Positions 2,380-59,141 of a stretch of DNA of 64,000 bases are shown here, in pieces. The first letter of the stretch is position 1. Every line of letters begins with the position of its first letter. Origin of the DNA: a virus. The stretch is taken from positions 62,001 through 126,000 of IMG/VR virus record IMGVR_UViG_3300031857_000015. The stretch is one strand, 5' to 3'. Position numbers and translations under genes: made by a program. The notes under the pieces were generated by a model, which had not been told where the DNA came from, did no database searches, and saw only the letters and a program-made list of their open reading frames with translations.

Positions 2380-4260
2380 TCACGGCTTCCACCCGCTTGT
2401 TGTGCCTGTTACGCCGAACTGCTCGCCTTGGGCTAGAGCGGGCACATAACTGCTGCCCGCGGTATCGCTACTTAGGCCGCGTTGCACGCTATTCATAAGC
2501 CCTTTTTCTTGATACGAGCCCAGCATGCGGGTCATCCAGTCGGGGTCATTTGAGATATTCGCCATACCTCGCACCATTTCGGGCTGGAACGGCGGTGGTT
2601 CTTTGTGGGCTTGAATTGTCTTCACGCCGTATTTATTCAAATTGGTCAGCACGTTTTTACCGATCTTTGTGCCAATTGAATAGTGCAATACCGGTTTTTC
2701 AAGGTAATGCCCGGTTAATGTGTTAGGCGCGGCTGATACGCTACCTTCACGCGGCGTCCAATTACGTTCAATTGCTGAGTAGGGCACTACATCGTCTGGC
2801 GCATAATCGCCGTACTCGTCATTCAAACGCACGTGATTAACAAGACCGCGCGCAAGTAGCTCGATGTTCCGTCGGTGGGCTGTAATGCCGCTATTGCCCA
2901 TGACCTGCCGCATCGCCTGCACAAAGTAACGGCGGCCTTCTCCTACCCCTTTGTGCCGGACAATTTCAGCTGGATTTGGCATACCGTCGGATATGACGTC
3001 GCCGGCTTCAAGCTCGTCGCCTTTTTTAACAGCAAGCTTTCGCTCGGTCGGAACGTAGTGATCCTGCCCGTTAATCTGCACGTAATAACCGCCCTGCGGC
3101 GCTGGCCGAACTTCTTGTACTCGCCCGTCAAGCTGCGAATGCGCTGCGCCGTCTGGATATTTTTTCGGGACCTGTACCAGCGCGTTAAGCGCTTTAAAGC
3201 CAGAAATCGCGCCCGCGCCACCAACGCCGCCCGAGTGCTTCGAGCTGATCTGGCTTTGCGTAACCGGCTCGGACAGCGCCTGTGCGGCGGTAATGCCTAC
3301 GTAATCGCCGATGGGCGGTAGGCGCCCCTTCTCCCGGTAACCAACGTCTTTGGCGTAAACGCCGCCATCGCCCGGGCCGCCGACAATCGGACTGCGGACT
3401 AAGATATCTTTAGCGCCGCTTTCTTTCAGGTCTCGCAAGATCTTGGGCGTCAGAATTGTATTGCGTTTATACGGCCCGACAGCGCGAGCGAGTAACGCAC
3501 CTTCGTTGTCTGGATCGTCTACGTCGGTGGGGTAGCCGCGCTCTTCCGCGGTCATGCGCCGCTCTTCATCGTCGTTATCATCGTCATCTGCCGTAACGAG
3601 CAGTCGGTGCGTCATCTGCGCAAGCTGTTTACCGTAGAACCCCGCGTCGGCGGTGGCCGTCTTCAGATCGATAACGCCCTTGCGGGTACCGAACGCGCCG
3701 GCAAAGTATTCAACCGGGCGCAAACCTTGGCTGTAGCCGCGCAACACCGGAATTGGAATCGGGTCGCCGCGGTGGTCGAGATACTGCATGTCAGCGCCAA
3801 GAATCGAGTTTAACTGAAACTTGTTACCGACGCCGGCGCCAGCAATTTGATGCACCAGCGGATTATCTTGACCTTCCGCTTCTTTGTACACTTTTTCGAG
3901 AAGTTCTTGCTGCGCTGCTTGCGCAAGTTCGAGGAGCTTGATGTTGCGCTGTTTTTCGTCAAGCCGGCGATCGGCAAAGATGTCGCGCATCTGATTTTGC
4001 ACACGCAGTTGCACGTGACGTGCCGCAAGCGTCGGGCGAATGTCTTTAAGCCCGAACGATAAGCCGTTTGTCGTATACCCGGCGTCGCGGCCGATGTCGT
4101 GAAGCCGCTTCATGACTTCGCGGTATTTTTCTGGATGCGTTTTGGCTAGCTCAGTCGCGACACCGGACATTGTCTTTTTCGTCAACACACGATCGTAGTC
4201 GCGCATCTCGGGCGGCAACGCTTCGTTAATCAGGAGTTGGCCGAGCGTTGTCTTCAGCAT
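2380..4260 (-). CDS. RNA polymerase β' subunit, C-terminal half
   Basis: This 626-aa protein carries the downstream half of multisubunit RNA polymerase β'. In order it has a region matching the β' segment after the active site, a bridge-helix region (GTRKGVIDLKTATADAG, near residue 192), and a trigger-loop region (GITAAQALSEPVTQSQ followed by SKHSGG). The latter corresponds to the GVIAAQSIGEPGTQL segment of bacterial β' and keeps the trigger-loop His. An acidic insertion (DDDDNDDEE) follows the bridge helix. The DFDGD catalytic site is absent here and sits in the 5240-9643 protein, so the two chains must assemble. The ATG overlaps the end of the preceding small gene with no clear ribosome site, suggesting translational coupling. 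Confidence 0.93.
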   Translation of the reverse strand: MLKTTLGQLLINEALPPEMRDYDRVLTKKTMSGVATELAKTHPEKYREVMKRLHDIGRDAGYTTNGLSFGLKDIRPTLAARHVQLRVQNQMRDIFADRRLDEKQRNIKLLELAQAAQQELLEKVYKEAEGQDNPLVHQIAGAGVGNKFQLNSILGADMQYLDHRGDPIPIPVLRGYSQGLRPVEYFAGAFGTRKGVIDLKTATADAGFYGKQLAQMTHRLLVTADDDDNDDEERRMTAEERGYPTDVDDPDNEGALLARAVGPYKRNTILTPKILRDLKESGAKDILVRSPIVGGPGDGGVYAKDVGYREKGRLPPIGDYVGITAAQALSEPVTQSQISSKHSGGVGGAGAISGFKALNALVQVPKKYPDGAAHSQLDGRVQEVRPAPQGGYYVQINGQDHYVPTERKLAVKKGDELEAGDVISDGMPNPAEIVRHKGVGEGRRYFVQAMRQVMGNSGITAHRRNIELLARGLVNHVRLNDEYGDYAPDDVVPYSAIERNWTPREGSVSAAPNTLTGHYLEKPVLHYSIGTKIGKNVLTNLNKYGVKTIQAHKEPPPFQPEMVRGMANISNDPDWMTRMLGSYQEKGLMNSVQRGLSSDTAGSSYVPALAQGEQFGVTGTTSGWKP

Positions 4261-4261
4261 G

Positions 4262-4501
4262 TCACGGCGTCCAGACGATGTTTTGCAACGATTTCGGCTT
4301 GAAGTCGGTTACAACAACTGTTTTATTGATACCCAGCGCGCGTAACATTGGATGAAAATCTTTTTCACCCACGGTTGAATAAACAACCGCCTCGTCGACT
4401 TGAATGGCGACGAATAGCGGGTTACCTAGATCGTCCTCGACAACGACGCTGTGCGATTTCTGCTCAGCGGGTTGAAGATTGTGCTGCGTTTTAACCAGCA
4501 T
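4262..4501 (-). CDS. Small hypothetical protein between the two polymerase genes
   Basis: A 79-aa soluble protein with alternating β-strand-like segments and no recognisable motif. I start it at ATG 4501 because GGAG lies 11 nt upstream; a TTG at 4510 is too close to that site. It overlaps the end of the Pro-rich gene by 11 nt and abuts the β' C-terminal gene by 1 nt. It therefore sits in a tightly coupled cluster and could be a small polymerase-associated subunit, but that is inferred only from position. Confidence 0.75.
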   Translation of the reverse strand: MLVKTQHNLQPAEQKSHSVVVEDDLGNPLFVAIQVDEAVVYSTVGEKDFHPMLRALGINKTVVVTDFKPKSLQNIVWTP

Positions 4502-5219
4502 TGTCCGCAATACTCCGAATCATGGCGGCGATAGCATTTGCTTTGATCTGCATTGCCGTGGGCGCATTCGGATTCGAGTAGCTGGGGCCGAACGGCCGGC
4601 CGATTGACGACGCAGACTTTTCAGCGCGGTCCCACCACGCCGCCTTAGACGGATCACCCTCTGGCGGTGCGGCGTTCGGCGGCATCGGGCCGCCCGGGGG
4701 CATCGGACCACCCGGCGGTTGCATACCGGCCTGCGCGTTGGGATCTTGCGCGGGAGGCGCCATCGGGCCGCCGGGCAGCGCGGTTTCAGCCGGCGGGGCG
4801 CCGGTTGTTCCGGGCGGGAGCACAAGTGACTCTGGCGGAACTTGCACACCCATCGCGTTCATAATGGCCGTGAGCTGCTGCTGCATGTTGTACAAGCGAT
4901 AGTCGAGCATCTGCATCATCTGCTCGGGCTTTAGTTTTTGCTGCGTGCCTGCAGGGGCTGCGCCCGGAGCGGCGGGTGCGGCGGGCGCTGCGGGAGGAGC
5001 AGCGGGCGGCGCCATACCCATAGCCGCAGGATCCACTGGCGGTGCAGCTGCTGCAGCAACAGCAGACGGATCGGCCGGCGGTACAGCCCCCATGGCGGCT
5101 GGGTCAACCGGCGGAGCACCACCAGCAGCAGCGGGATCCACCGCCGCTCCGGGCACTAATGCGGATTTTTCAAAGCGCGCCTTCGCCAGCGCAATGAGTT
5201 CGGGGTTTACCGTGAACAT
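4491..5219 (-). CDS. Pro/Ala-rich low-complexity protein in polymerase cluster
   Basis: A 242-aa protein with a short helical start (MFTVNPELIALAKARF), then repeats of the type PPVDPAAMG/PPADPSA. A short helical stretch follows (EQMMQMLDYRLYNMQQQL), then a second run of GGPMPP-type repeats and a helical C-terminus. Such composition suggests an extended linker or virion-associated protein. A GGAGG site precedes the ATG. It lies between the β-β'N fusion and β'C genes. I do not recognise a family, and low-complexity composition limits inference. Confidence 0.85.
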   Translation of the reverse strand: MFTVNPELIALAKARFEKSALVPGAAVDPAAAGGAPPVDPAAMGAVPPADPSAVAAAAAPPVDPAAMGMAPPAAPPAAPAAPAAPGAAPAGTQQKLKPEQMMQMLDYRLYNMQQQLTAIMNAMGVQVPPESLVLPPGTTGAPPAETALPGGPMAPPAQDPNAQAGMQPPGGPMPPGGPMPPNAAPPEGDPSKAAWWDRAEKSASSIGRPFGPSYSNPNAPTAMQIKANAIAAMIRSIADNAG

Positions 5220-5239
5220 ACAGCCTCCATGTTTAACGA

Positions 5240-8200
5240 TTACGTATTATCTTCCACAATATGAACCGGGGTGTCCACCTCTATTTCGCCGCGCCGGTAC
5301 GCCTGCATGGCATCCTGCTTGCTGCGAAACACGCGTGGTTTAGCTTTTTTACTGATTCGACTGGACGCTAAGTATAACCCAGTCTGGTAGTCTTTGTTTG
5401 GGACGTAGTGCGCCTTGAACGTCGAAGCTGCAAACAGGTTCTTACTCGGCAGCATCTTTTCCACGGCTTCTTTAGCGGCGTCTTCGGTACTTGGGACGTG
5501 ATACTGCATCGCGTCGCCGTCGAAGTCAGCGCCGAACCCCTTCGTGATTACGGGGTTTACTTCCATGACTTTGTTCTTAGTTAACTTGGGGTAAAACGCC
5601 ATCATGCCGTAACGGTGAAGCACGGGCGCGCGGTTAATAACAATAGGCCGCGACGACATCTGCCGATCTAGCTCGGCGCCAGCTTCTTTCGTCTTGTCTT
5701 CCACGGCCTGCATCGCCTGCATGCGCGGAAGACCCCTGCGAACAAGACCGCGCACAACGAACGGCTTGTAAATATCCCACGCTTTCTCTTCCGGCAACGC
5801 AACCTCGTCCATGTCGAGATCGGGATTCGGTGTAATGACCGCGCGCCCCACGAGGTCGACCGTGGAGCTAAGAAGCTTACGCTGCACGGTGCCGTACTTT
5901 GGCGAGTTACCGAACACGTGCCGCAGAAAACCTTTCACATTGCGCTCAACGTTTTTCGGCTGCTGCGGCTCACCCAGTCCAGTGACAGCCTTCATCGAGT
6001 CATACACGCTCAGGCGTTCGTCGCCGTAATCGGCCAGCGCGCCAGACGCCTCTTTCAGTGTGTCGTTCGCATCAAGCAGTTCTTTGTACAGATAGTTTGC
6101 GTCAGCGACGAGCGGCAGCTTCTTACTGCCCATCGTGCTCACGGGGCGGAAGAGTGGCGGCAAGACGGGGACTTTACTAATCATCCAGTCTTTGGGGTGC
6201 ACGCCGGTTGTTTCCGCGCTCTTTAAGAACCCCAACCGGCGCACGGCAGCGTCGCGAAGCGTCTTGCGCCCGGATTTAATATCTAAACGCGCCTGCTCGA
6301 TAGCCTTTGGTAGGTTAATTCGTTCAAGCGCGGCCTTGATCGCCGTGGGCCCTGTTTTGTCGCCCAGCTGTTCGCGACCAGCCAGCACGCCGCGGAACTG
6401 CTTTTCCGTCATCCCCAGTACGCGTCGAATCGGGTCTTCCATGACCGGATTCGGCAGCGGCTCGTGCAGCGTGATCTTGCTCCACCTGTTACCGCCGTGG
6501 CCGCCCGTCAAAGCCTCATCAAATAAACCGCCGGCAATAGGCTTGAGGCGCCCCTTCCAGTCAACGGTCTCAGAGCTTTTCAATTCACGCGGACCGGCCA
6601 GCTCGTCGATGTCTTTGTCGGTCATGGCCATGAGGTTCGACCGCGTGCCTTTGCGCACAACGTTAATACCAGACGCCCTAAGCTGCCCGACGAACTTCTC
6701 GTATACGTGTGGCACCTTGGGTAGCGGCGGAGTGTAGCCGGCCATGAACTGCGACCAGTATTCGGGATTTGCTTGGCCGCGCACCATCTTGGCGTCGCGA
6801 ATAACCTTACCGGCGCCGTGCGAAAGCAGCGCGCCAAGATCCAGCATGCCGACGCGCTTGGCGCCTTCGCTGCCGCCCTTCGCCGGAGTGCCTTCGGCTG
6901 TATATGCACCCATCGACCGGCCCTGCGCTTTTGATTCGCTGGTATGGTGCAGCTTCATGAAAAACCGGCTGCCGGTCAGCACACCGCCGATTTTCCGCCC
7001 GGTTTCTGCGTCGATGACGTCTTCGGTATCGGACAGCCCGTGCTTTGCCAGTTCTTTCTGCGCAAACTCAATGAGGTCGTTTTTGTTATCAAAGTCCTTG
7101 AGCTTGTACGGCGAGCCGGTCTTTGCTGCGACCTTGCCTAGTGCGGCTTCAATCACCTGCGCCGGGTTAATACGGCTGATCAGACCCAGCGGCGAGACGA
7201 GCACTTCAAAAGGATTGCCGTCGCGGTCTTTGGGCATCTGGTCGTCAGGTACGATCTCTGCGACGACGCCCTTGTCGCCAAAGCGCCCGGTGAGCTTGTC
7301 GCCAACGTCCATGGGCGCTTGGTTTTTAACGACAACGCTCACACCCTTCTTGGTGTGCATAACGTCGGTCACGATACCCGGCGCATGATGCTCCCACGTG
7401 ATTGTGTCGTTTGTAAAGTTACCAGCACGCCCACGATGCACTTTGCCGTACACCGTGTCTTTCTTTTTGGCCACGAGCACGAGCGGGTCACCAAACTTGA
7501 CCTCAGTACCTTTTTTAATCGCGCCGTCGTCGTCAAAGTTGTCAAGATACTTTTTGTCGTACTCAGTCGGGAACAAACTCACGAACGCCTTCTTGCCAAC
7601 GTGAGTGTTGTCGTCCCACTCGGCTTCGTGCTGATACATGTGCTCAGACGTTAGCCGCTTGGATGCGGATTCAGAGATAACTACCGCATCTTCGTAGTTC
7701 TTGCCGCGGAACGGCAGATAGGCTGTACGCAGATTCAAGCCGAGCGCTGCGCTGCCGTTTTGATCTGTAAAGTTCGACCGGGCGAGCAGTTGTCCGGGCT
7801 CTACCGTGTCGCCGGGCTTCACAATCGGCGTCTGGTGTAAGAACGTCTTACGGTTGTACGGCATTTCGTTATACAAATCGATCGTCTTCTTATTACCATC
7901 TTTGTCGCGCAGTACGATGCCGTCAGGTGTGACATCGACGACTTGCGCGCGTTCGGTAGCCCGGGTGGCGCCAAGCTTTTCGCCCATCTCGTCTTCGTGC
8001 GACATGCTCTCGTCATCGGCCTTGGCGGATTGCAGCAACGGCGCCTCGGCGTTTACTAGCGGGAGCGCTTGCGTAAACATACGGCTACCCATGATCACGC
8101 GGTGGCCTTTGATCATGGACTTAATCGGCACCATGTTGGATAACGTCGAAAACGTTGAATCCATGTTCGGCAGGCTGAACTGCGCCTCTTTACGCGGAAC

Positions 8201-9643
8201 ATACTTGAGCTTGCCGTTGACGAGCGCTGCCACCACGGGAAGTCCGTTATCTTCTTCGCCGGGAAACACGAGCGGCGTATCGGCCAGCTCTTGCGGCGTC
8301 TTGTACACCTTATCGCCGGTTTTCATATCAACAACCGGCGTATACACCTTGCCGTCGGAGCCCTTCATAGCGCCGCGGGCAAAGCGCATGTCAACACCCA
8401 CCTTGCCGGATTCTGGCGTGCGAAGATAGTCGATAAACCCAAGGTGGCTGGGCTGCACAGAACGTGACTCGGCAGGCACGGCGTCCAGCGAGCCAATGCC
8501 GCCTTCGCCCATACGGGTCACACGCGTCTGGTGGTCAAAGATCTCCGCAGGATTAATTTCTTCTAAACTCGACCCCAGACCGCTGCCAATAAGCGCAGCT
8601 GAGATTGCCTTGTCGAATACGCCCGACGGAATGTGATCAATTGACTTCTTCGCCGTAGCTTTCCAGAGCAGCTTGTTAAGCGATTGGCGGTCTTTGGTAA
8701 AACGCTCGGCAATGAGGTCCTCCGGGCCGACGACGGACTGATACACCATGTTGTCTCGGTCGTCGCTCTCGGCCTCGCGGCGATTCACTGCGATTAATTT
8801 CTTAGTGATCGCCAGAATCGTCTCCGGCGTCATGTTCTTGTATTCAGAACCCAGTGTGCGCCGGGTGACTTCCGGGTCGAGTTCGGTCTTGGCAAACTCG
8901 GCCGCGATCGCCTGCGCTTTGGCAATAGCGTCTGCGCCGGCAACTGGTTTGTTTACAAGGCGGGCGTAGATCTTGTCCATCGTGCCAGCATCGCCCTTCT
9001 CCATGTTGACGGCGGTGATCTCATTGCCCCACGCTTTGCGGATGTCCTGATCTGACACGCCCATGGACTTGAGCAGCGGCATGAGCGGGATCTGCGCCTG
9101 ACCAATGCTGATTTTGAACACGCCGGTTTTGGGGTCGAGGAAGTACCGGTGCGAACGGCCCTTACCCGGTAGCGTGTTTACGTGCGCCTCAATCTCGCCG
9201 TTGTCTTTCTCGCGGGTAAACACGCCGGGGCGCAACCGCATCTGGTGCGCAAGGGTGTACTCGACGCCGCCGTTAACGAACGTGCCCGAGTCGGTGAGAT
9301 ACGGCACGTGGGCGATCGTGGCGCGGCGCTGGCCGACAGGCTGCCCGGTTTTGTTATCTGTAAGCGTCCACGTACCTTGCAGCCGGCGGGCAAGTGTCCC
9401 TCTGGAAAGGACAGCTTTCTTCTGATCTGACCTTGTGAAGCGCTCAGGTCCCGAATACCCGACGTCTTGCAGCTGCAACGTATACAGGTCATTCTGCAGC
9501 GGCTTGAGCCCCTGCGCGCTCGTAAGCGCCTGATTAAAAATGTTATCCCGCATCACGCCAACGTCGCCGAACGTGCGCATCGTGGGCGCGACCGGCGCGG
9601 GTGTCATCGGCGATTTTAAGTCGGGCAGTTCAGGGGTCGGCAT
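5240..9643 (-). CDS. RNA polymerase β subunit fused to β' N-terminal half
   Basis: A 1467-aa fusion. The first roughly 1130 residues are β-like: near residue 778 is GDKLTGRFGDKGVVAEI, the β active-site Lys region, followed by FEVLVSPLGLISRINPAQ, matching the β clamp segment. From VPVLPPLFRP (about residue 1158) the chain is β': LVGRAVITPNPDLD, the RPIVINRAPVLHRYG motif, and the metal-binding GADFDGDAMQYH (about 1371-1382). It stops about 90 residues later, and the rest of β' is encoded at 2380-4260. The N-terminal zinc-binding domain of β' is absent. β-β' fusions are known in Helicobacter, and split subunits in phiKZ-type phages. The combination of β fused to β' N-half with a separate β' C-half is unusual. 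Confidence 0.95.
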   Translation of the reverse strand: MPTPELPDLKSPMTPAPVAPTMRTFGDVGVMRDNIFNQALTSAQGLKPLQNDLYTLQLQDVGYSGPERFTRSDQKKAVLSRGTLARRLQGTWTLTDNKTGQPVGQRRATIAHVPYLTDSGTFVNGGVEYTLAHQMRLRPGVFTREKDNGEIEAHVNTLPGKGRSHRYFLDPKTGVFKISIGQAQIPLMPLLKSMGVSDQDIRKAWGNEITAVNMEKGDAGTMDKIYARLVNKPVAGADAIAKAQAIAAEFAKTELDPEVTRRTLGSEYKNMTPETILAITKKLIAVNRREAESDDRDNMVYQSVVGPEDLIAERFTKDRQSLNKLLWKATAKKSIDHIPSGVFDKAISAALIGSGLGSSLEEINPAEIFDHQTRVTRMGEGGIGSLDAVPAESRSVQPSHLGFIDYLRTPESGKVGVDMRFARGAMKGSDGKVYTPVVDMKTGDKVYKTPQELADTPLVFPGEEDNGLPVVAALVNGKLKYVPRKEAQFSLPNMDSTFSTLSNMVPIKSMIKGHRVIMGSRMFTQALPLVNAEAPLLQSAKADDESMSHEDEMGEKLGATRATERAQVVDVTPDGIVLRDKDGNKKTIDLYNEMPYNRKTFLHQTPIVKPGDTVEPGQLLARSNFTDQNGSAALGLNLRTAYLPFRGKNYEDAVVISESASKRLTSEHMYQHEAEWDDNTHVGKKAFVSLFPTEYDKKYLDNFDDDGAIKKGTEVKFGDPLVLVAKKKDTVYGKVHRGRAGNFTNDTITWEHHAPGIVTDVMHTKKGVSVVVKNQAPMDVGDKLTGRFGDKGVVAEIVPDDQMPKDRDGNPFEVLVSPLGLISRINPAQVIEAALGKVAAKTGSPYKLKDFDNKNDLIEFAQKELAKHGLSDTEDVIDAETGRKIGGVLTGSRFFMKLHHTSESKAQGRSMGAYTAEGTPAKGGSEGAKRVGMLDLGALLSHGAGKVIRDAKMVRGQANPEYWSQFMAGYTPPLPKVPHVYEKFVGQLRASGINVVRKGTRSNLMAMTDKDIDELAGPRELKSSETVDWKGRLKPIAGGLFDEALTGGHGGNRWSKITLHEPLPNPVMEDPIRRVLGMTEKQFRGVLAGREQLGDKTGPTAIKAALERINLPKAIEQARLDIKSGRKTLRDAAVRRLGFLKSAETTGVHPKDWMISKVPVLPPLFRPVSTMGSKKLPLVADANYLYKELLDANDTLKEASGALADYGDERLSVYDSMKAVTGLGEPQQPKNVERNVKGFLRHVFGNSPKYGTVQRKLLSSTVDLVGRAVITPNPDLDMDEVALPEEKAWDIYKPFVVRGLVRRGLPRMQAMQAVEDKTKEAGAELDRQMSSRPIVINRAPVLHRYGMMAFYPKLTKNKVMEVNPVITKGFGADFDGDAMQYHVPSTEDAAKEAVEKMLPSKNLFAASTFKAHYVPNKDYQTGLYLASSRISKKAKPRVFRSKQDAMQAYRRGEIEVDTPVHIVEDNT

Positions 9644-34560: not shown

Positions 34561-35406
34561 CTATTTTGACGCATTAATATCTAAATCAGCCACGGGATTC
34601 GGTCCCAATGTGGCCTGCGCCGCCAACTCACGCTCGTGCTTCTGAATTTCAGATTCTACCCAATCTTTGTACAAACTCACACGGGTAAACGCGCTGTCGT
34701 CGCCGTACGTGCCGTCTGGTTTCCCGTCGGAGTGCGCTAGAAATGAGTTAATTCCCGCTAATTGATTGCCAATGAACATTCCGCCGCCAGAATCTCCGGG
34801 GGCGATCATGAACTCTAACGGCAGCCGCCCTTCTTTTCTGGGCGAGCACAAAACTGTTGCCAGATGCGCGGACAAAAGCTTGTTGTGTCCCGCCCGGCGT
34901 TGATTATCTGTTTTTGTGGCGCCCGTAATAAAGTTTCCAGTTGAGCCCCAGCCCGCAATCGTCACGGCTTGGCCTATTTCATCTGTGTTGCTGTACAGCG
35001 GCACATAGAAAGCTAGTTTGAAGTCTTCGGCTACGTAGCACAGCGCAATATCGTGCAGCCCAATTTTGTCTGCGTTGTAATCTTTGTGCTGCACTTTGTA
35101 GACAACGCGATGTTTCTTCTCGCCCACATGAATCACGTTGTTATTCGATTCGTTGATGACGTGCGCGGCGGTTAACGCCCAGTGCGGCCGGATGATCACA
35201 GCCGAGGCAAGCTGTTCGTGGTGTTCGTTGCACTTCGTGCAGTCAATGTCGTTGGTGATCCGCACGACAAAGGGAAACTGCTTGCCAAACTCGACATACT
35301 TGGCGTCTGGTGTGCTGGGGTCGATCGTGCCGGCCATCGCTGCGCGCGCGGCCAAGAGAATAATCACGAAGCGTAGCAGGCGGGCAAAGAATTCTTGCGC
35401 GTTCAT
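34561..35406 (-). CDS. Secreted trypsin-like (S1) serine protease
   Basis: 281 aa. A signal peptide (LLRFVIILLAARAAMA) precedes an S1 domain with the full triad: His82 in ALTAAHVI, Asp119 in HDIALCYV, Ser206 in APGDSGGGMF. Cys56 and Cys59 lie in DCTKCNEHH, a possible metal or disulfide pair. Active trypsin-fold proteases are rare in phages; export suggests action in the periplasm or outside the host, or in virion maturation if the leader is a membrane anchor. Confidence 0.92.
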   Translation of the reverse strand: MNAQEFFARLLRFVIILLAARAAMAGTIDPSTPDAKYVEFGKQFPFVVRITNDIDCTKCNEHHEQLASAVIIRPHWALTAAHVINESNNNVIHVGEKKHRVVYKVQHKDYNADKIGLHDIALCYVAEDFKLAFYVPLYSNTDEIGQAVTIAGWGSTGNFITGATKTDNQRRAGHNKLLSAHLATVLCSPRKEGRLPLEFMIAPGDSGGGMFIGNQLAGINSFLAHSDGKPDGTYGDDSAFTRVSLYKDWVESEIQKHERELAAQATLGPNPVADLDINASK

Positions 35407-35447: not shown

Positions 35448-37262
35448 TCATGCTCGTTGTTGTGGCTGTAAGAGTTTCATCGCGTTGGCAAACATGTGCG
35501 GATCGAGTTTGGGCGGTAATGGTTTCGCGGGCGGCGCTTTCAGTGTGTTCCCCAGTGCGCCGGCGCCGTAGCCAGCCGCGCCCATTAAACCTGTGGCCCC
35601 CAGTCCCAAGAGCGTGCGGTTGCGGGCCATGAGCTTCAGGCCCTTCTGCACGATTGGTTTATTCGTAATACCTAATATCTTAGCGCCCGGGCGTGTGAGC
35701 AGCGTACTGGGCAGCACGTCCATGTGGGAAAGTTGCGGTTTTACGGCGCCGATATCGCTCAGTACGGCAGACGGCATCGAACCGCAATGATTGCCCCAGC
35801 ATCGCGTTCCGATGCCGCGGCCGCCAATAAACGGGATCTTCTGCAGCCACGGAAACCGCCGGCGCAGCATGTTCAGGCCCATCACCTCTTTCGTGCCGGC
35901 ACCGATGGCGGCTGAACTGGCGTAACCCTTGTTGGTTTCTACATTGAGCGACTTGGCCAGCTGCGACTCGTCGATATTGTCAGCCATGCGGGCGTAAATC
36001 GTGCCGCGCGGCTGCTCTGCGTAATAACCCTTGGGGAAGAGCTGCGACCTGTCTTTCATCGCGTCGTCGTACACATTGTCGATGCCCATGTGGGGATCGC
36101 CAGAATTAAACTTCCACGGGCGCTTCTTGGCGTCGAGCCGGCCTGCAGCCATGGCTTTTTGATTCTCACGCACACGCTGCCGCAAGATATTTAAACTCAC
36201 GCCGTTGCGCCCAGCGATTTCGCGCTGGGCGGCTTCCGGCAGCGTTTCAAACAGATGGAACAGCGGATCATGCACCTGATCGAGCATCGCGCCGCCGTGA
36301 TGCAGCGTGGGAATCAACCGCTCGAATGCTTTGGGTTTAAATAACTTTGAGCGGGCCAGATGTCCCTGCGGCATGCCCACTTCGTCAACGGCTTTGGTGA
36401 TCGCGTCAGCCAGTGCGGGCGAGGATTTGGTCCCTCTGCGCCGAAATAAATCAGCCAGCGCTTTGAGTCTTTCTTTCTTGGCTAGGCTCTCGGGCGAGGC
36501 TGGATTGTCTGCCAGTGCGCGCACATTCGTCTCGACTCGGCGCATCTTGGCCTGCGGTGTCCCCTCGAAGAACTCGCGCAGGCCGCCTTTCGCTGCATAT
36601 GTCCCGCCCGTCGGTGTCGTGCGCTCAGTGGTCAGAAAGTTCTTAAAGTTCTTGACTAACTTATCGCGCCGGGCAACTAACTTACTGGCATCTGCACCCG
36701 TGGTCTTGGCCTCTTGAATCTGCCGAGACAGCGCGTTCAGCCGGGCTTTCATCAGGCCGTATTTATCACCGCCGCCTTCGAACGCCATGTAGCGCTCGGC
36801 GTTCGGCGCATTGCTGATGAATCCCTTGCGGTTCGTGGCCAGACCCGGGCTGTAGACTTCGCCGGCGTCGTTTACCAAGAACGATAGCGGCGGTGGTTTG
36901 CCGCCTTCGGGTGTGTTTGTGAGTGCGTGCGGCGCTTGAATATACGGCCCGACCATCTGGCCGTGCATGCCCGGACCGCCAGACGCTGCACCCGAGCCCT
37001 GAATCAGAAAGTTAACGAGATTACCGTCGCGACTCTGCTGTAGCCCAGACAAACCGAGGTCGCCGGGCTTGAGGGTCTTGAGCGCCTGCGCGACGTCCAC
37101 GTTCCCGTTGGCCAGCGTCCAGTCCGGGGCGTCGTTGATGAGCTTTTTATATTTGGGCAGCGTGACGAGGAGATATTCGAGCAGGCTGGCTGCTGGAAGC
37201 GCTGCGCCCGCGGTTGCACCAATGGGGCGTAAATCTACGCCATTGTCTTCAGGTGCGGGCAT
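35448..37262 (-). CDS. Large virion-type hypothetical protein
   Basis: 604 aa. An N-terminal Ala-rich helical region (GATAGAALPAASLLEYLLV) is followed by a long mixed region with charged helices. The C-terminal part is Gly-rich and hydrophobic (LLGLGATGLMGAAGYGAGALG). A CWGNHCG motif sits near residue 495. Its composition matches the neighbouring virion-type proteins. No recognisable domain. Confidence 0.8.
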   Translation of the reverse strand: MPAPEDNGVDLRPIGATAGAALPAASLLEYLLVTLPKYKKLINDAPDWTLANGNVDVAQALKTLKPGDLGLSGLQQSRDGNLVNFLIQGSGAASGGPGMHGQMVGPYIQAPHALTNTPEGGKPPPLSFLVNDAGEVYSPGLATNRKGFISNAPNAERYMAFEGGGDKYGLMKARLNALSRQIQEAKTTGADASKLVARRDKLVKNFKNFLTTERTTPTGGTYAAKGGLREFFEGTPQAKMRRVETNVRALADNPASPESLAKKERLKALADLFRRRGTKSSPALADAITKAVDEVGMPQGHLARSKLFKPKAFERLIPTLHHGGAMLDQVHDPLFHLFETLPEAAQREIAGRNGVSLNILRQRVRENQKAMAAGRLDAKKRPWKFNSGDPHMGIDNVYDDAMKDRSQLFPKGYYAEQPRGTIYARMADNIDESQLAKSLNVETNKGYASSAAIGAGTKEVMGLNMLRRRFPWLQKIPFIGGRGIGTRCWGNHCGSMPSAVLSDIGAVKPQLSHMDVLPSTLLTRPGAKILGITNKPIVQKGLKLMARNRTLLGLGATGLMGAAGYGAGALGNTLKAPPAKPLPPKLDPHMFANAMKLLQPQQRA

Positions 37263-37366
37263 AGTCTGTCTACCGGTTTTGATAACAATGGCGCAATTTT
37301 ACCTGCTCTCATTCTAATACAAAAGCGAGGCCGGCCGAAAAACTAGTTACCAGAGCGCTGATAGTT

Positions 37367-37404
37367 AAAAAAACGCTTACGCGTGCGGAGCCGTCGCCTC
37401 CGCT
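37367..37404 (-). terminator. Intrinsic terminator
   Basis: Minus strand: GCGGAG-GCGACGG-CTCCGC immediately followed by ACGC-GTAA-GCGT and seven T. It ends the transcript of the 37416-37739 gene and separates the small-gene region on the right from the virion-type genes on the left. Confidence 0.7.
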
Positions 37405-37415
37405 GCCGATAAGTT

Positions 37416-37739
37416 TTACTCGCCGTCGTACACCTCAAACCGCTCCCAGACACCGTTGCGGCAGCAATCGACCACCCAGTACGACCGGTCTACTTCGACC
37501 GTATCGTCACTAAGGACGCAGGCGTGCCGCTCGGTGTGGTAGCAGTAATCCGCGGAGAGCGTATCCGTACCGTCGCCGATGTCCACAACGTGCGCCGTGC
37601 AGTAGTTGGGGTTGGTGATCCGGTCGCGGCGGGCCGCAAACAGCGCCGCCCGGAGATCGCACTGATTGTTGAACAGCTTGTCCACATAGCGCTCCGCATC
37701 GCCCATGTGCTCAAAGAACGTAACAGTATTCGGGGTCAT
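37416..37739 (-). CDS. Small Cys-containing hypothetical protein
   Basis: 107 aa from ATG 37739 (AAGGAG 6 nt upstream). A short helical N-terminal part (DAERYVDKLFNNQ) is followed by a strand-rich, acidic region with CYHTERHACVL and VVDCCRNGVW. Possibly metal-binding. It forms its own unit between a 36-bp two-box element 62 nt upstream and a terminator. Confidence 0.75.
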   Translation of the reverse strand: MTPNTVTFFEHMGDAERYVDKLFNNQCDLRAALFAARRDRITNPNYCTAHVVDIGDGTDTLSADYCYHTERHACVLSDDTVEVDRSYWVVDCCRNGVWERFEVYDGE

Positions 37740-37800
37740 GACAAACTCCTTCGGAAAACCAGAACCCGCAACCACGCAACACACGCAGTGCTATAGGCCC

Positions 37801-37836
37801 TCAATAGATATGACCGCTTTTTGCCCGATATTTAGC
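37801..37836 (-). promoter_or_regulatory. 36-bp two-box element, copy 1 (putative phage promoter)
   Basis: Minus strand: GCTAAATA, 12 nt, CGGTCATATCTATTGA. Copies 1-6 keep the same 12-nt spacer and 36-nt length. Starts 62 nt before the 37416-37739 gene. The boxes are placed like -35/-10 elements but do not match σ70. Confidence 0.75.
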
Positions 37837-37852
37837 TCGGGTTCTGATAGCT

Positions 37853-37890
37853 AAAAAAAGGCGCCCAAGACAACGAGTCAGGGGCGCCTT
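37853..37890 (-). terminator. Intrinsic terminator
   Basis: Minus strand hairpin GGCGCCCC...GGGCGCC followed by seven T and TAGCTATCAG. It ends the 37925-38638 transcript just before promoter copy 1. Confidence 0.85.
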
Positions 37891-37924
37891 CAAACCGTTC
37901 CGAGGAGGACGGTTTAAGACAACG

Positions 37925-38638
37925 TTAGGCGGCAGCGACCGCGGCCTTGTTGGCGCGCATCGCCTTCACCTTCGCCTCGACGGCGGGCAGGATCTTGGCC
38001 AGCGTGCTCTCCTGCACGCCGCCCTCGAACAGCCCGAACAGCGCGGCCGACGTGCAGCCACCGGAGACCGCAGCGAACAGGATCGCCGTGACCTTGGTGA
38101 TCGTCACGCCCGCGCCAGCCGCGGCAGCAAGGCCGCCGGTCGTGACGCCGACAGCGACACCGACCGTGGTGCCCACGCCAATCGCCGCGGCTGCCGCGAC
38201 CAGCTTGAGCATGCCGGCGTTCACGTCCGAGATGTTCATGGAGCTGACCAGCGCATGAACTGCGGTCAGAGCCTTCTTGGCCTGACCGTAGGCGTTGTTC
38301 GCCATCTCCTTGATCCACGCCACCACCGCCGCCGTGGCCTCCTCGATCGCGCTGTACACGCGGCCGAGGAAGGACCAGACGCCCGAGGCGATCTTCTTGA
38401 TCGCATCGGCGATGGTCTCGCAGACCGTCAACACGGCGCCACCGAGGGCGGAGACCGTGTCGACGACGAGACTGCCGGTGCGGGCCAGCAGGCTCTGCTC
38501 GGCCAGCGTCTGCTGCACGAGCTGGTCGATCTGCTCGTCGGTCAGCTCCGGCTTCGTGGCCGTGCGCGTGACCTTGCCGACCTTGACCTTCGCCTTGACG
38601 CCGCGGGTCTTCACGGGGATCTTCTTCGTTGCAGCCAT
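37925..38638 (-). CDS. Abundant-type membrane or virion protein, strongly GC-biased codons
   Basis: 237 aa. A basic N-terminus (MAATKKIPVKTRGVKAKVKV) leads into a helical region, then long Ala/Val/Gly hydrophobic segments (AAAAIGVGTTVGVAVGVTTGGLAAAAG) typical of membrane or pore-forming proteins. Third codon positions are almost all G or C, unlike neighbours, which suggests optimisation for high expression. It has its own upstream two-box element and downstream terminator. No family recognised. Confidence 0.82.
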   Translation of the reverse strand: MAATKKIPVKTRGVKAKVKVGKVTRTATKPELTDEQIDQLVQQTLAEQSLLARTGSLVVDTVSALGGAVLTVCETIADAIKKIASGVWSFLGRVYSAIEEATAAVVAWIKEMANNAYGQAKKALTAVHALVSSMNISDVNAGMLKLVAAAAAIGVGTTVGVAVGVTTGGLAAAAGAGVTITKVTAILFAAVSGGCTSAALFGLFEGGVQESTLAKILPAVEAKVKAMRANKAAVAAA

Positions 38639-38720
38639 CTGAACAGTTCCTTAAACATGAGGACATCGATTGCGCAGAAGCCCATGCAATCCGTCTGGGG
38701 ACGCCAATAACACATTGGCA

Positions 38721-38756
38721 TCATTAGATATACCCGGCTTTTCGGCTTTATTTAGC
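38721..38756 (-). promoter_or_regulatory. 36-bp two-box element, copy 2
   Basis: Minus strand: GCTAAATA, 12 nt, CGGGTATATCTAATGA. It begins within a few nt of the end of the 38759-39838 gene and lies 83 nt before the 37925-38638 start. Confidence 0.75.
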
Positions 38757-38758
38757 TA

Positions 38759-39838
38759 TCAGCCGTTATTCCGGGTTTTCACCGCCATCTGCTCCCGCGC
38801 AGGCCACAACACCATCTGTTGCATTGTGTCCTCGTCGGTTGCGTCGCCGAGTAACTGCAGAGCTGTTACTGGACGCTGCGCAATGCTTTCTTTACGCTCG
38901 TCGGTCAAGCTGTCGCGCAGCACAGCCTTGAGCGCGTCATACCGGGGATACGTCACCCATCCTTCAGCTTTGTCCGGGTTGTACTTTTCGTACTTCCTGT
39001 GGACATAGTGATTGGTTTGCACCAGTCCGTTGCGTCTGGTGCGAATGGCGTCGTCATCTCCGACATGCGTCACAACAGTGTGTTCATGGGCTTTGGTGCC
39101 AACCACGTGCGCAAAGAACGGCACGATGGTTTCATAGCTCCGTAGCCCGAGAACCAGACTGTTGTAACTCTTTGGCAGTAGGTCGCAGGCGGCTCGGACC
39201 CGCTGTAACACGGGCCACTTAAAGAGCAGCTTAGGCGCCGACAGCCAGCCAAACAAGCTATTCAGTTTATTTACAACTGGAGCTTGATTGACAGTGACAG
39301 CCCATGAATCACCCATGGCAGAGATCACGCCCACCATGCCCGCCACGCCTACAGATGTATAAGCTTGGCGACCACGATGAAAGCGAAAGATCCGCGTGTG
39401 CCGGCCAGTACTGCGCGGCACCACCCAGTCCATGTTACGGACCAGCACGGGGGACTTCTCAACATCAAAGCTGATACTGGAGCACCCACAACCGTACATC
39501 TCGGCTAAAGATGTGAAGTCGTAGATGAGGTTTCCCAGCATGAGCTTCCCCACAGGAACGTCGGCGTGCCGGGCAATGCACGCTAGTTCCTGTGTGTAAT
39601 CTTCGCCAAACATGTCCACGATTTGGCGAAGTAACCAGCCGCCACCATTGGCCAGCGTATGCACAGCCGCCATGAGCGGACCGGGCAGGCTAGGCGCCAC
39701 TGTCTCCTCGATTTCTGTTTCCACATCAGCGAGGAGCGACTGAATAGCATCTCCGTTTTGGATAGCAAAATCAGTCCAGCGCTCGTCAGCGGGGGCGTCC
39801 AGATCGATGTCCCAGACCTTGCCCGTGTAGAGCTTCAT
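38759..39838 (-). CDS. Acid ceramidase/NAAA-like N-terminal-nucleophile hydrolase
   Basis: 359 aa. Cys119 in GCGCSSISFD, followed by PVLVRNMDW, matches the C-T-S-I...RNxDW core of acid ceramidase, NAAA and choloylglycine-type Ntn hydrolases. In these, autocleavage frees the Cys as nucleophile. Later TVNQAPVV and VQTNHYVHRKY match the substrate- and Asn-containing segments. The roughly 115 residues before Cys119 correspond to the α-chain. These enzymes cleave amide bonds of lipids or bile-salt-like compounds. No signal peptide is visible. A most unusual phage enzyme; substrate unknown. Confidence 0.85.
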   Translation of the reverse strand: MKLYTGKVWDIDLDAPADERWTDFAIQNGDAIQSLLADVETEIEETVAPSLPGPLMAAVHTLANGGGWLLRQIVDMFGEDYTQELACIARHADVPVGKLMLGNLIYDFTSLAEMYGCGCSSISFDVEKSPVLVRNMDWVVPRSTGRHTRIFRFHRGRQAYTSVGVAGMVGVISAMGDSWAVTVNQAPVVNKLNSLFGWLSAPKLLFKWPVLQRVRAACDLLPKSYNSLVLGLRSYETIVPFFAHVVGTKAHEHTVVTHVGDDDAIRTRRNGLVQTNHYVHRKYEKYNPDKAEGWVTYPRYDALKAVLRDSLTDERKESIAQRPVTALQLLGDATDEDTMQQMVLWPAREQMAVKTRNNG

Positions 39839-40026
39839 GACGGGTCACGCCCTTTCTTCCGTTTAAACAAGCACACCAGCAGCGGCAATTCGTTGTGAAT
39901 TGGCACGGCTGGCTGTGCAGGGCGTTTAAATAGAAAAACCGCCGGTACCGAATAGTGGAAGCTATTCGCGGGTACGGTGCCGCAGGAACGACGATCAGCC
40001 CGGCTACGCGTTTGCATAATCGGCAT
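39835..40026 (-). CDS. Small basic hypothetical protein
   Basis: 63 aa from ATG 40026 (GGAGG 8 nt upstream). Basic and Pro-rich, ending LVCLFKRKKGRDPS. Its stop overlaps the ceramidase-like start by 4 nt, so the two are probably translated together. Function unknown. Confidence 0.6.
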   Translation of the reverse strand: MPIMQTRSRADRRSCGTVPANSFHYSVPAVFLFKRPAQPAVPIHNELPLLVCLFKRKKGRDPS

Positions 40027-40028
40027 GA

Positions 40029-40421
40029 CTAGTTCCCTCCCTTCTTCGGCTTTGGCGCCAAGCCAAAGTCGCTGTTTTGGCCCGGGAACGGCACCGGGAT
40101 GTTGAGCTTGTCGCAGCACTTGGTGACCAGATCTTCCAGTCGCTCGATGTACGCCAGCTGCAGGGCAGCCCGTGCGTCCACGATCTCTTGGAATCGCTTT
40201 TCCGTCAACTGTCTCGCAATCGCCAGCTCTTGGGCTGAGACGAGGTTGAGACGCAGCCGGTTGGTGGCTTCTTCAGCCTGCTCAATTCGCTCGAAGGCTT
40301 TGTTCAGCGTGACGGTCAAGAATCCGACCACCCTGCCCAGCTCTTCAACCCTGTCTTCCGCTGGCTTCGAAACATCGTCAGGAAGCCACTTGTTGATGTC
40401 CGTTTCAAACATCTGGCTCAT
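40029..40421 (-). CDS. Small coiled-coil protein
   Basis: 130 aa. Residues about 20-105 are continuous helix with heptad-like spacing (LTVTLNKAFERIEQAEEATN, RLEDLVTKCCDKL), ending in a basic PKPKKGGN tail. First gene of a unit that continues into the ceramidase-like enzyme; a two-box element lies 65 nt upstream. Confidence 0.78.
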   Translation of the reverse strand: MSQMFETDINKWLPDDVSKPAEDRVEELGRVVGFLTVTLNKAFERIEQAEEATNRLRLNLVSAQELAIARQLTEKRFQEIVDARAALQLAYIERLEDLVTKCCDKLNIPVPFPGQNSDFGLAPKPKKGGN

Positions 40422-40485
40422 CGGTCATTCTCCTTAGCCGCGCAGAAGCGGCAGGACACAGATCCGCCCAATACACTACTGGGCG

Positions 40486-40521
40486 TCACTGAATATGACC
40501 GGAATCGGGCTTTTATTTAGC
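40486..40521 (-). promoter_or_regulatory. 36-bp two-box element, copy 3
   Basis: Minus strand: GCTAAATA, 12 nt, CGGTCATATTCAGTGA. It overlaps the 3' end of the 40513-41718 gene, whose last codons GCT AAA TAA form the upstream box, and lies 65 nt before the coiled-coil gene start. Confidence 0.75.
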
Positions 40522-41718
40522 TATCAGCGGCTGGCTCTGCGTCGCCCGAAAGTTGCGCAACGCGGCGGCTAAAAACTTCTGATAGCTCGCGCCGACGCCG
40601 CCACGATTAGGAAGTCGGGCGCCGGTATTGAGCGCGCCGGACGTAATTCTGGGTGGGACAAAGTTGCTTAAACCGCTCACCTGCAAGCGCGGCAGGAGTT
40701 TTAATAACATGTCTCCGCGGCCCGCTTCTTTCCCAAACGCATACGCGCTGGAGCACTTGCAGTTCCATTTGCGCAGGGATTTGTTAATACGCGAGTCAGG
40801 GTCGGACTTGGTTTTACTACCTGTGTTTACACGCTTCATGCCGCACATCCGCGAGCAGAAAGAGTCCTGACGCTTCTTGGCTTTTCCCTTGGGATTCTTC
40901 TCAGTGACCGGGGCTTTTAAGTTCCCGCCCGTCTCCCGTTCGTAGCTTTTGCGCCCCTTTTCATTGAGCCCGCCTTCAGGATTCTTACCCGAAGAGCGCT
41001 GCCACGCCGGCGTACTGCCCAACTTCTCACCCCCTACCGAATTAGCCGTCCCAAACGCTGCGTTCCCTGTGATATCGCCCGTGGAAGACAGCGCGCCGTA
41101 AGAGTTAATGGGGTTGGCATTGGGAGAAGAGCCGCCGCCAACAGGGGGAAGCTGGCCAGACGGCGCCGGGGAGCCCATGTTCGCCGGTTGGGCGGCGGGA
41201 GCCTGTGGTTGAGCCTGCGGCGCCTGTGGTTGCATCCCCATCGGCAGGGGAGTACCGGCTGCAGGCATGGCGTAGCGCTTTATACCGGCGTTTGCAGGCA
41301 TGCGGGCAGCCTCTCGGGCCTCTAGCTCAGCCCTTTCGTTCTCTATCGCCTGCATTATGGGCTGCGACAAGACAGCAGAAATCTTCGCCATCAGCTTGTT
41401 TACACCATAATTTGGCTTTATTTCTGAATTACACCGTTCGCCCTTGGTCTTCACTACCTTGGGTGGATTTTCACCTGCAACCGTGGGCTTAGCACTGGCC
41501 GGCTGCTCGATATAGACCTCTTTGGTGTCCGCTTTCTTGGATAATTTTCTGTAAATATCGAGGGCTACAGAGTTTACAGCCGATTGTTTATGAGTTGTCT
41601 CTTTATTAGCGTACATAGGGAGTTTCTTTTTGGTTGGATACTCGTGTGCCCAGCGTTTGGCGATGTCTGGATGCGCTGCCCAGAGAAATCTACGCTGTTT
41701 TTCAGACTTAAACGGCAT
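40513..41718 (-). CDS. Virion-type protein with DUF6321-like domain
   Basis: 401 aa. The N-terminus MPFKSEKQRRFLWAAHPDI then AKRWAHEYP is a short motif found at the start of many phage proteins. A Pro/Gln/Ala-rich linker follows. Around residue 255 is KNPEGGLNEKGRKSYERET then GGNLKAPV, the DUF6321 pattern, with a Cys cluster (SFCSRMCGMKR) and NCKCSSA after it. Probably virion-associated. Confidence 0.78.
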   Translation of the reverse strand: MPFKSEKQRRFLWAAHPDIAKRWAHEYPTKKKLPMYANKETTHKQSAVNSVALDIYRKLSKKADTKEVYIEQPASAKPTVAGENPPKVVKTKGERCNSEIKPNYGVNKLMAKISAVLSQPIMQAIENERAELEAREAARMPANAGIKRYAMPAAGTPLPMGMQPQAPQAQPQAPAAQPANMGSPAPSGQLPPVGGGSSPNANPINSYGALSSTGDITGNAAFGTANSVGGEKLGSTPAWQRSSGKNPEGGLNEKGRKSYERETGGNLKAPVTEKNPKGKAKKRQDSFCSRMCGMKRVNTGSKTKSDPDSRINKSLRKWNCKCSSAYAFGKEAGRGDMLLKLLPRLQVSGLSNFVPPRITSGALNTGARLPNRGGVGASYQKFLAAALRNFRATQSQPLIAK

Positions 41719-41932
41719 GGCGTAGCTCGAAAGATAGTGAACTCAGAGGGATTCCCGGAGTTAGGGTGCGAACTAGTCGGAAAAACCTATAAGTTGGTCG
41801 GCGCGGCTGTTCCCAAGCTGAATACGCCTCATTTTGGCATACGGGGGCTGAGAAGAAAAGGGCGAAGAGGCGTCTGGTACACTGGAAAGATAGTTGGGGA
41901 ATGGATTCAGGCGTTTCGACAAGGAGGCCGCC

Positions 41933-42262
41933 ATGAGATCTCTAAGAATTCTAGTGTTTAGCCTGCTGTGCGTGATGGGAATGGGAAAAGTGTGCGCCGA
42001 TACGGTATTAATGTTCTCCGCTGACTGGTGTAAGTACTGCAAGATCGCTAAGGCGGACTTATTGGAGAACAAAGACGAGGTGAATGGCTGGGGGTTAGAG
42101 GTAGTGGACACCGATGTGAGCCGGGAACTGGTCAAGCAGTACGGAGTGAAGAGCCTGCCGACGTTTATCTATCTAAATGACGCCGGGGAAGAGCTGGATA
42201 GAGTGGCAGGCTATAAGGGATATAACCGGCTACGGCGTTGGGTCGAAAAGAGCGCGCGCTGA
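41933..42262 (+). CDS. Secreted thioredoxin-like protein
   Basis: 109 aa from ATG 41933 (AAGGAGG 6 nt upstream). A signal peptide (LRILVFSLLCVMGMGKVCA) precedes a thioredoxin domain with the active site DWCKYCK and the cis-Pro segment VKSLPTFIYL. It is one of only two plus-strand genes in the window, sitting divergently beside the 40513-41718 gene. The position suggests separate control or recent acquisition. Its product probably handles disulfides outside the cytoplasm, perhaps for the Cys-rich exported proteins here (inference). Confidence 0.9.
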   Translation: MRSLRILVFSLLCVMGMGKVCADTVLMFSADWCKYCKIAKADLLENKDEVNGWGLEVVDTDVSRELVKQYGVKSLPTFIYLNDAGEELDRVAGYKGYNRLRRWVEKSAR

Positions 42263-46757: not shown

Positions 46758-47102
46758 TGGAGGCGGCGGGAGTCGAACCCGCGTCCAGAGATATCTCCAG
46801 AAAGAACGTCTACGTGTGTAGGCAGTTGTTGTTTACACTCCTGCCAAAGTTAGCCGATTATCGGCGTCAGGTGGGCTACCACCATCTTGCCCTTTCTCGC
46901 CGGGCCAGATCAGCCGATTATCGGCGTCAACCTGATTGGGCAATAAGGCTCAGGTCGCCTCACCCACTGGCCTATTAACTAGGCAGCGAGGGCCGGAGCA
47001 AAAGCGCCAGCTAGAAACGTAATCGGCTTTTAACGTGGCCAACCGATCAACCACGACACGCAGTCCTAACCTTCCTTATCCTGTCGAAACCAGTACGCCC
47101 CC
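46758..47102 (-). ncRNA. ssrA: Transfer-messenger RNA (tmRNA), one-piece
   Basis: 345 nt. The 5' end GGGGGCG pairs with 3' CGCCTCC (7 bp, one G-U), and ACTGGTTTCGACAGG is the conserved 5' tmRNA segment. GGACGCGGGTTCGACTCCC is the 3' T-arm with discriminator A; CCA is not encoded. A short frame (stop 46979-46981) encodes a tag reading KPITFLAGAFAPALAA, ending in the typical ALAA. An in-frame TAA directly precedes AAG, so the resume codon is AAG or later. Two copies of GCCGATAATCGGC probably form pseudoknots. It would rescue stalled ribosomes and tag proteins for ClpXP-type proteolysis. Confidence 0.96.
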
Positions 47103-59095: not shown

Positions 59096-59141
59096 AAAAA
59101 AAGACCCGCCGAGTGAGCATCGTTGAGAGGCCCGGCGGGTT
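59096..59141 (-). terminator. Intrinsic terminator
   Basis: Minus strand hairpin ACCCGCCG...CGGCGGGT followed by seven T; ends the 59165-59539 gene. Confidence 0.85.

Follow-up and report, generated by a model that had tools for sequence, protein, structure and literature searches.

Gene content at the cer locus

The window, as we call the whole stretch of 64,000 nucleotides analysed here, covers positions 62001-126000 of a virus record 198,101 bp long. The initial annotation had placed an enzyme gene at positions 38759-39838, and this frame is indeed complete, with an ATG start and a product of 359 amino acids; its strand, which had been left out, is the minus strand. We refer to the gene as cer. 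The features discussed below are the following.

35448-37262, minus strand: p604, of about 604 amino acids, co-occurring with cer; PGD, His100 and C-x-G-x-H-C-G (488-494) are invariant, and a glycine zipper lies at the C-terminus.
37925-38638, minus strand: mem237, co-occurring with cer; basic N-terminus, Ala/Gly-rich membrane segments and a glycine zipper.
38759-39838, minus strand: cer, acid-ceramidase/NAAA-like Ntn hydrolase precursor.
39011-39013, minus strand: codon of Asn276 (QTNH), the predicted oxyanion-hole Asn, invariant in all aligned rows.
39428-39439, minus strand: Arg134-Asn135-Met136-Asp137, supplying Arg and Asp to the catalytic site, invariant in the viral rows.
39482-39484, minus strand: codon of Cys119, invariant in 21 rows and predicted both to be the nucleophile and to start the mature beta subunit; the family suggests cleavage between Gly118 and Cys119.
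39653-39811, minus strand: NAAA-beta domain (Pfam; residues 10-62), the N-terminal part of the predicted alpha subunit.
39835-40026, minus strand: orf63, an open frame whose sequence is not conserved.
40029-40421, minus strand: cc130, a small coiled-coil protein beginning with MSQMFETDI, the partner upstream of cer in part of the clade.

Upstream of cer lies a gene for a DUF6321 protein, and downstream of it follow mem237, p604, a trypsin-like protease and an SNF2-like helicase. The protease (34561-35406, minus strand; Pfam E 1e-19) is of the serine type and has an apparent signal peptide. Matches of the p604 profile to PDB and Pfam stayed at chance level and pointed to no known family. It is therefore from its motifs that we read p604 as possibly a circularly permuted papain-like enzyme.

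The record encodes RNA polymerase beta/beta'-like proteins, a portal and tail fibres, which bears out the attribution of cer to a phage, as well as seven tRNAs (Rfam) and one tmRNA. The two RNA polymerase genes (2380-9643, minus strand) are 24-32% identical to the polymerase that Salmonella phage Arash has in its virion, and identity to the polymerase of Vibrio phage D181 is about 32%. The record represents a tailed phage of 198 kb with Arash as a distant relative. Some further elements of the window were noted in passing. The tmRNA (46758-47102, minus strand; Rfam 129 bits) was given an unlikely tag by ARAGORN, probably a miscall: the usual ALAA end appears in the +1 frame, ...AGAFAPALAA*. 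At 41894-42262 (plus strand), on the strand opposite to its neighbours, lies the gene of a thioredoxin-like protein that has a WCKYC motif and an apparent signal peptide and is conserved in L002, L003, L005 and L006. An abiF RNA match (59104-59139, minus strand; Rfam 44.6 bits, above the gathering score) belongs to a type of RNA linked to an abortive-infection system and is located here inside a phage genome.

Family assignment of cer

The Pfam NAAA-beta domain (PF15508) is found in cer with a score of 27.5 bits, just above the cut-off of 27 (E 4.3e-6); it is also matched by 9 of 10 viral relatives (best E 7.8e-7). Beyond this domain, the Pfam AAT model scores 18.4 bits with the window gene, below its cut-off of 23.2, and is matched by all 10 viral members. 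The NCBIfam model C45_proenzyme (NF040521) matches cer with E 3e-18 and likewise all 10 members; since the score of 66.2 bits is under the curated cut-off of 85, cer is related to this family and is not filed as a member. In searches against the PDB, the single sequence retrieved acid ceramidase at E 4.5e-4, while a profile of 10 relatives retrieved acid ceramidase 5u84 at E 2.5e-9 and NAAA at E 4.5e-4.

Structure prediction gave an AlphaFold model of low confidence (mean pLDDT 44.8, and 38 in an earlier run on 7 sequences) because the alignment is shallow. With this low-confidence model, Foldseek placed acid ceramidase precursors first (E 8e-8 and 1.6e-7), followed by the NAAA precursor (1.3e-6) and then isopenicillin N acyltransferase. 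In VIA-align, the same model superposed on acid ceramidase with Z 13.2 and an rmsd of 4.0 over 233 residues, whereas the fold match to the acyl-homoserine lactone (AHL) acylase MacQ was weak (Z 6.9). For the alpha-beta-beta-alpha Ntn fold with its helical alpha subunit, this modelled match to acid ceramidase and NAAA is taken as supportive evidence only. Together, the NAAA-beta domain above its cut-off, the PDB profile match and the top Foldseek matches uphold the assignment to the acid-ceramidase/NAAA-like Ntn family, whose enzymes release fatty acids from lipids with an amide link. A choloylglycine or bile salt hydrolase type was rejected: in those enzymes removal of the Met alone uncovers the Cys at residue 2, while the Cys of cer is residue 119, behind the NAAA-beta domain.

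Acid ceramidase, NAAA and isopenicillin N acyltransferase are made as precursors that cleave themselves; the Cys thereby exposed at the N-terminus then hydrolyses an amide. Across 21 aligned rows, 10 of them viral and 11 planctomycete, Cys119, Arg134, Asp137, Asn276, Thr338 and Gln340 do not vary. The catalytic core proposed at first is present as described, with Cys119 in GCGCSSISFD, RNMDW at residues 134-138 and Asn276 in VQTNHYV. Loss of Cys119 in homologues had been named as counting against the assignment; the residue is kept in 10/10 viral and 11/11 cellular rows. The Cys-to-Arg spacing in cer is 15 residues, one fewer than in human acid ceramidase (C143/R159). The family and catalytic design of cer are well supported.

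The dN/dS values between the window gene and its viral relatives are 0.10-0.27, and cer is under purifying selection. Combined with the invariant catalytic residues, these values argue for a functional gene. The gene is real, conserved and, in broad terms, correctly assigned, and its enzyme class is an ordinary one.

Distribution among viruses and cells

Another 10 viral contigs contain relatives of cer with 55-93% identity; five of these contigs are about 190-205 kb and one is 158 kb long. No match to cer was obtained among the 50,697 phage records of INPHARED or, at E 0.01, in PHROGs. The predicted viral structures of BFVD yielded three significant matches, namely Yasminevirus, Fadolivirus and one nameless entry; the named ones include no phage. 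The open-access library searched yielded no paper on a phage acid ceramidase. The suggestion that such an enzyme would be new for a phage is therefore in keeping with INPHARED, PHROGs and the named BFVD matches, but it does not extend to viruses in general, given Yasminevirus and Fadolivirus. Within the collections searched, an acid ceramidase/NAAA-type gene in a tailed phage looks new.

The nearest cellular copy (43-46% identity) sits in a metagenome-assembled genome (MAG) titled Kuenenia, where the flanking genes are planctomycete-like. Close copies of cer occur in only 2 of 294 planctomycete genomes, while the wider C45 family is common in planctomycetes (66 of 99). A planctomycete homologue used as the query retrieved no additional viral contigs, and a plasmid search with cer gave a single weak match, to an Aureibacter C45 protein. 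A planctomycete as nearest relative of cer is alone no proof of the phage's host.

Linkage to neighbouring genes

For a survey of the locus, relatives were fetched by their helicase regardless of the presence of cer, which was found in 10 contigs and in none of the remainder. In all 10 cer-positive loci cer and p604 occur together, and mem237 tracks them among the fetched loci. Both cer and p604 are missing from the whole records of 14 cer-negative relatives, several of which are fragments. On the helicase tree, the cer-positive phages form one side of a branch with support 98/97; the linkage may therefore trace to a single gain or loss. The co-occurrence of cer, mem237 and p604 partly reflects a common ancestor and is no independent evidence of joint function.

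In sister phages, other genes separate the DUF6321 gene from that of the helicase. The cer-negative sisters L060, L061 and L068 carry a different gene set from the DUF6321 gene to the protease, including a glycine-zipper protein of 780-900 amino acids, and in L061 and L068 this stretch also encodes an additional protein with a GSGKT P-loop motif.

The window and L046, L047, L050/L051, L058 and L069 encode a coiled-coil protein starting with MSQMFETDI or a closely similar sequence; L053 has a fragment. The coiled-coil partner named in the initial annotation thus lies upstream of cer in the window and in some clade members, but mem237 and p604 downstream, which were not mentioned there, are the more constant neighbours.

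Transcription of cer

The gene had also been described as driven by its own promoter unit, which the evidence does not support. No sigma-70-like site was found in 37200-41000. In L046, L050 and L058 the stop of the coiled-coil frame overlaps the start of cer (ATGA); in the window, cc130 ends 2 bp ahead of orf63, which in turn overlaps the cer ATG. Given the overlapping stop and start and the lack of a promoter-like site, cer is probably transcribed within an operon. Two candidate signals were discarded: an upstream hairpin is no more stable than shuffled sequences (z -0.96), and TTTAAAC is present on both strands, mostly within genes.

Proposed function and alternatives

We consider it fairly likely that cer encodes an active, self-activating Ntn amidase of the acid ceramidase/NAAA type, which belongs to a fixed gene set of one clade of uncultured tailed phages of about 200 kb. 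In this set, the order is often the coiled-coil gene, cer, the glycine-zipper membrane protein and p604. The product would be a precursor of about 40 kDa; no signal peptide or other export signal was seen in it. Cys119 is predicted to attack the Gly118-Cys119 bond, giving an alpha part (residues 1-118, with the NAAA-beta helices) and a beta part (residues 119-359). Once freed, Cys119 would hydrolyse a linear amide bond in a site completed by Arg134, Asp137 and Asn276.

We favour as substrate a host N-acyl compound, which could be a ceramide-like or other N-acyl lipid or an N-acyl amino acid, for two reasons: lipid amidases are the closest characterised relatives, and the linkage to a membrane protein is constant. 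The enzyme would meet this compound in the cytoplasm or on the inner side of the membrane, and mem237 might provide the membrane contact. Autocleavage, activity, substrate, place of action and benefit to the phage are all properties that we infer for cer.

One alternative is that cer is packaged in the virion and injected with the DNA, to act during entry along with mem237 and p604. The gene shares a same-strand block with the RNA polymerase genes and lies near the SNF2-like helicase, and mem237 and p604 both contain glycine-zipper segments. Distant homologues of the beta, beta' and helicase proteins, Gp206, Gp216 and Gp217, are present in the Arash particle according to mass spectrometry (PMC10585845). 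However, Arash has no homologues of cer, mem237 and p604, so the particle data do not extend to these products, and gene neighbourhood alone is weak evidence. We regard packaging as a minority possibility, rather unlikely on balance.

Similarly unlikely, to about the same degree, is that small N-acyl metabolites are the substrates of cer, which would act on them as acyltransferase or hydrolase, for instance in the detoxification of an antibiotic of the host or a competitor, or of an acyl-homoserine lactone signal. The rank of isopenicillin N acyltransferase as the next fold match and the C45_proenzyme match speak for such a role. In isopenicillin N acyltransferase, Gly precedes the nucleophilic Cys, as it does in cer. 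The sequence of cer is nevertheless closer to acid ceramidase and NAAA than to isopenicillin acyltransferase, and the weakness of the MacQ match argues against an AHL acylase. Between a lipid and a small-metabolite substrate, the evidence favours neither.

A more far-reaching proposal, which we think doubtful, combines the preferred enzyme with its neighbours into a module for lipid attack: the self-activating amidase, the membrane-inserting mem237 and p604 as a second cysteine enzyme, possibly carried in the virion, would remodel or break N-acyl lipids of the host membrane in the course of infection. Less probable still is that the Ntn fold of cer was kept for a non-enzymatic role, such as an autocleaving structural or regulatory protein; the restriction of cer to one phage clade would fit this, but every predicted catalytic residue is invariant and not the cleavage Cys alone. 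The idea that cer is host DNA in a chimeric contig, as the nearest cellular relative in a planctomycete-like MAG contig might suggest, has practically no probability left: it is ruled out by synteny, since place, neighbours and order are identical across independent contigs from several metagenomes, and the cellular copy, at 43-46% identity, is much too divergent for recent host DNA.

With the amidase reading, cer would add an enzyme of the N-acyl-lipid amidase type to phage gene content, maintained by selection in one clade with its neighbours fixed. Should ceramides or other N-acyl lipids of the host be its substrates, the phage would possess an enzyme that targets the lipids of the bacterial membrane and not the wall, and the lipid type of the host could be read from the phage.

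Comparison with known systems

Arash is related to this phage beyond the polymerase: its portal, helicase and other genes are distant homologues of those described here. Arash and Vibrio phage D181 differ in that neither cer nor p604 occurs across their whole records, and a search for mem237 found no homologue in Arash.

In comparison with acid ceramidase (ASAH1; 5u84, 5u81 and 5u7z), cer has in common the N-terminal NAAA-beta domain, the nucleophilic Cys, the RNMD motif and, going by the low-confidence model, an overall fold match. Identity amounts to about 15-20% in the aligned parts. The characterised acid ceramidases are lysosomal, while cer has no visible signal peptide. The helical domain of the NAAA alpha subunit (6dxw and 6dy3) aligns with cer in the profile search described above; NAAA, too, is a lysosomal enzyme, of animals, whereas cer is a phage protein.

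The planctomycete homologues L007 (G005) and L022 (G176) possess all catalytic residues as in cer, and RNMDWVVPRSTG is common to cer and L007, at 43-46% identity. These homologues have a chromosomal context, and L007 is not accompanied by the other phage genes of the cer block. Finally, the acid ceramidases of the giant viruses Yasminevirus (A0A5K0U9N5) and Fadolivirus (A0A7D3URR8) belong to the same fold family as cer at 17-19% identity; they come from viruses of eukaryotes, whereas cer is a gene of a bacterial virus.
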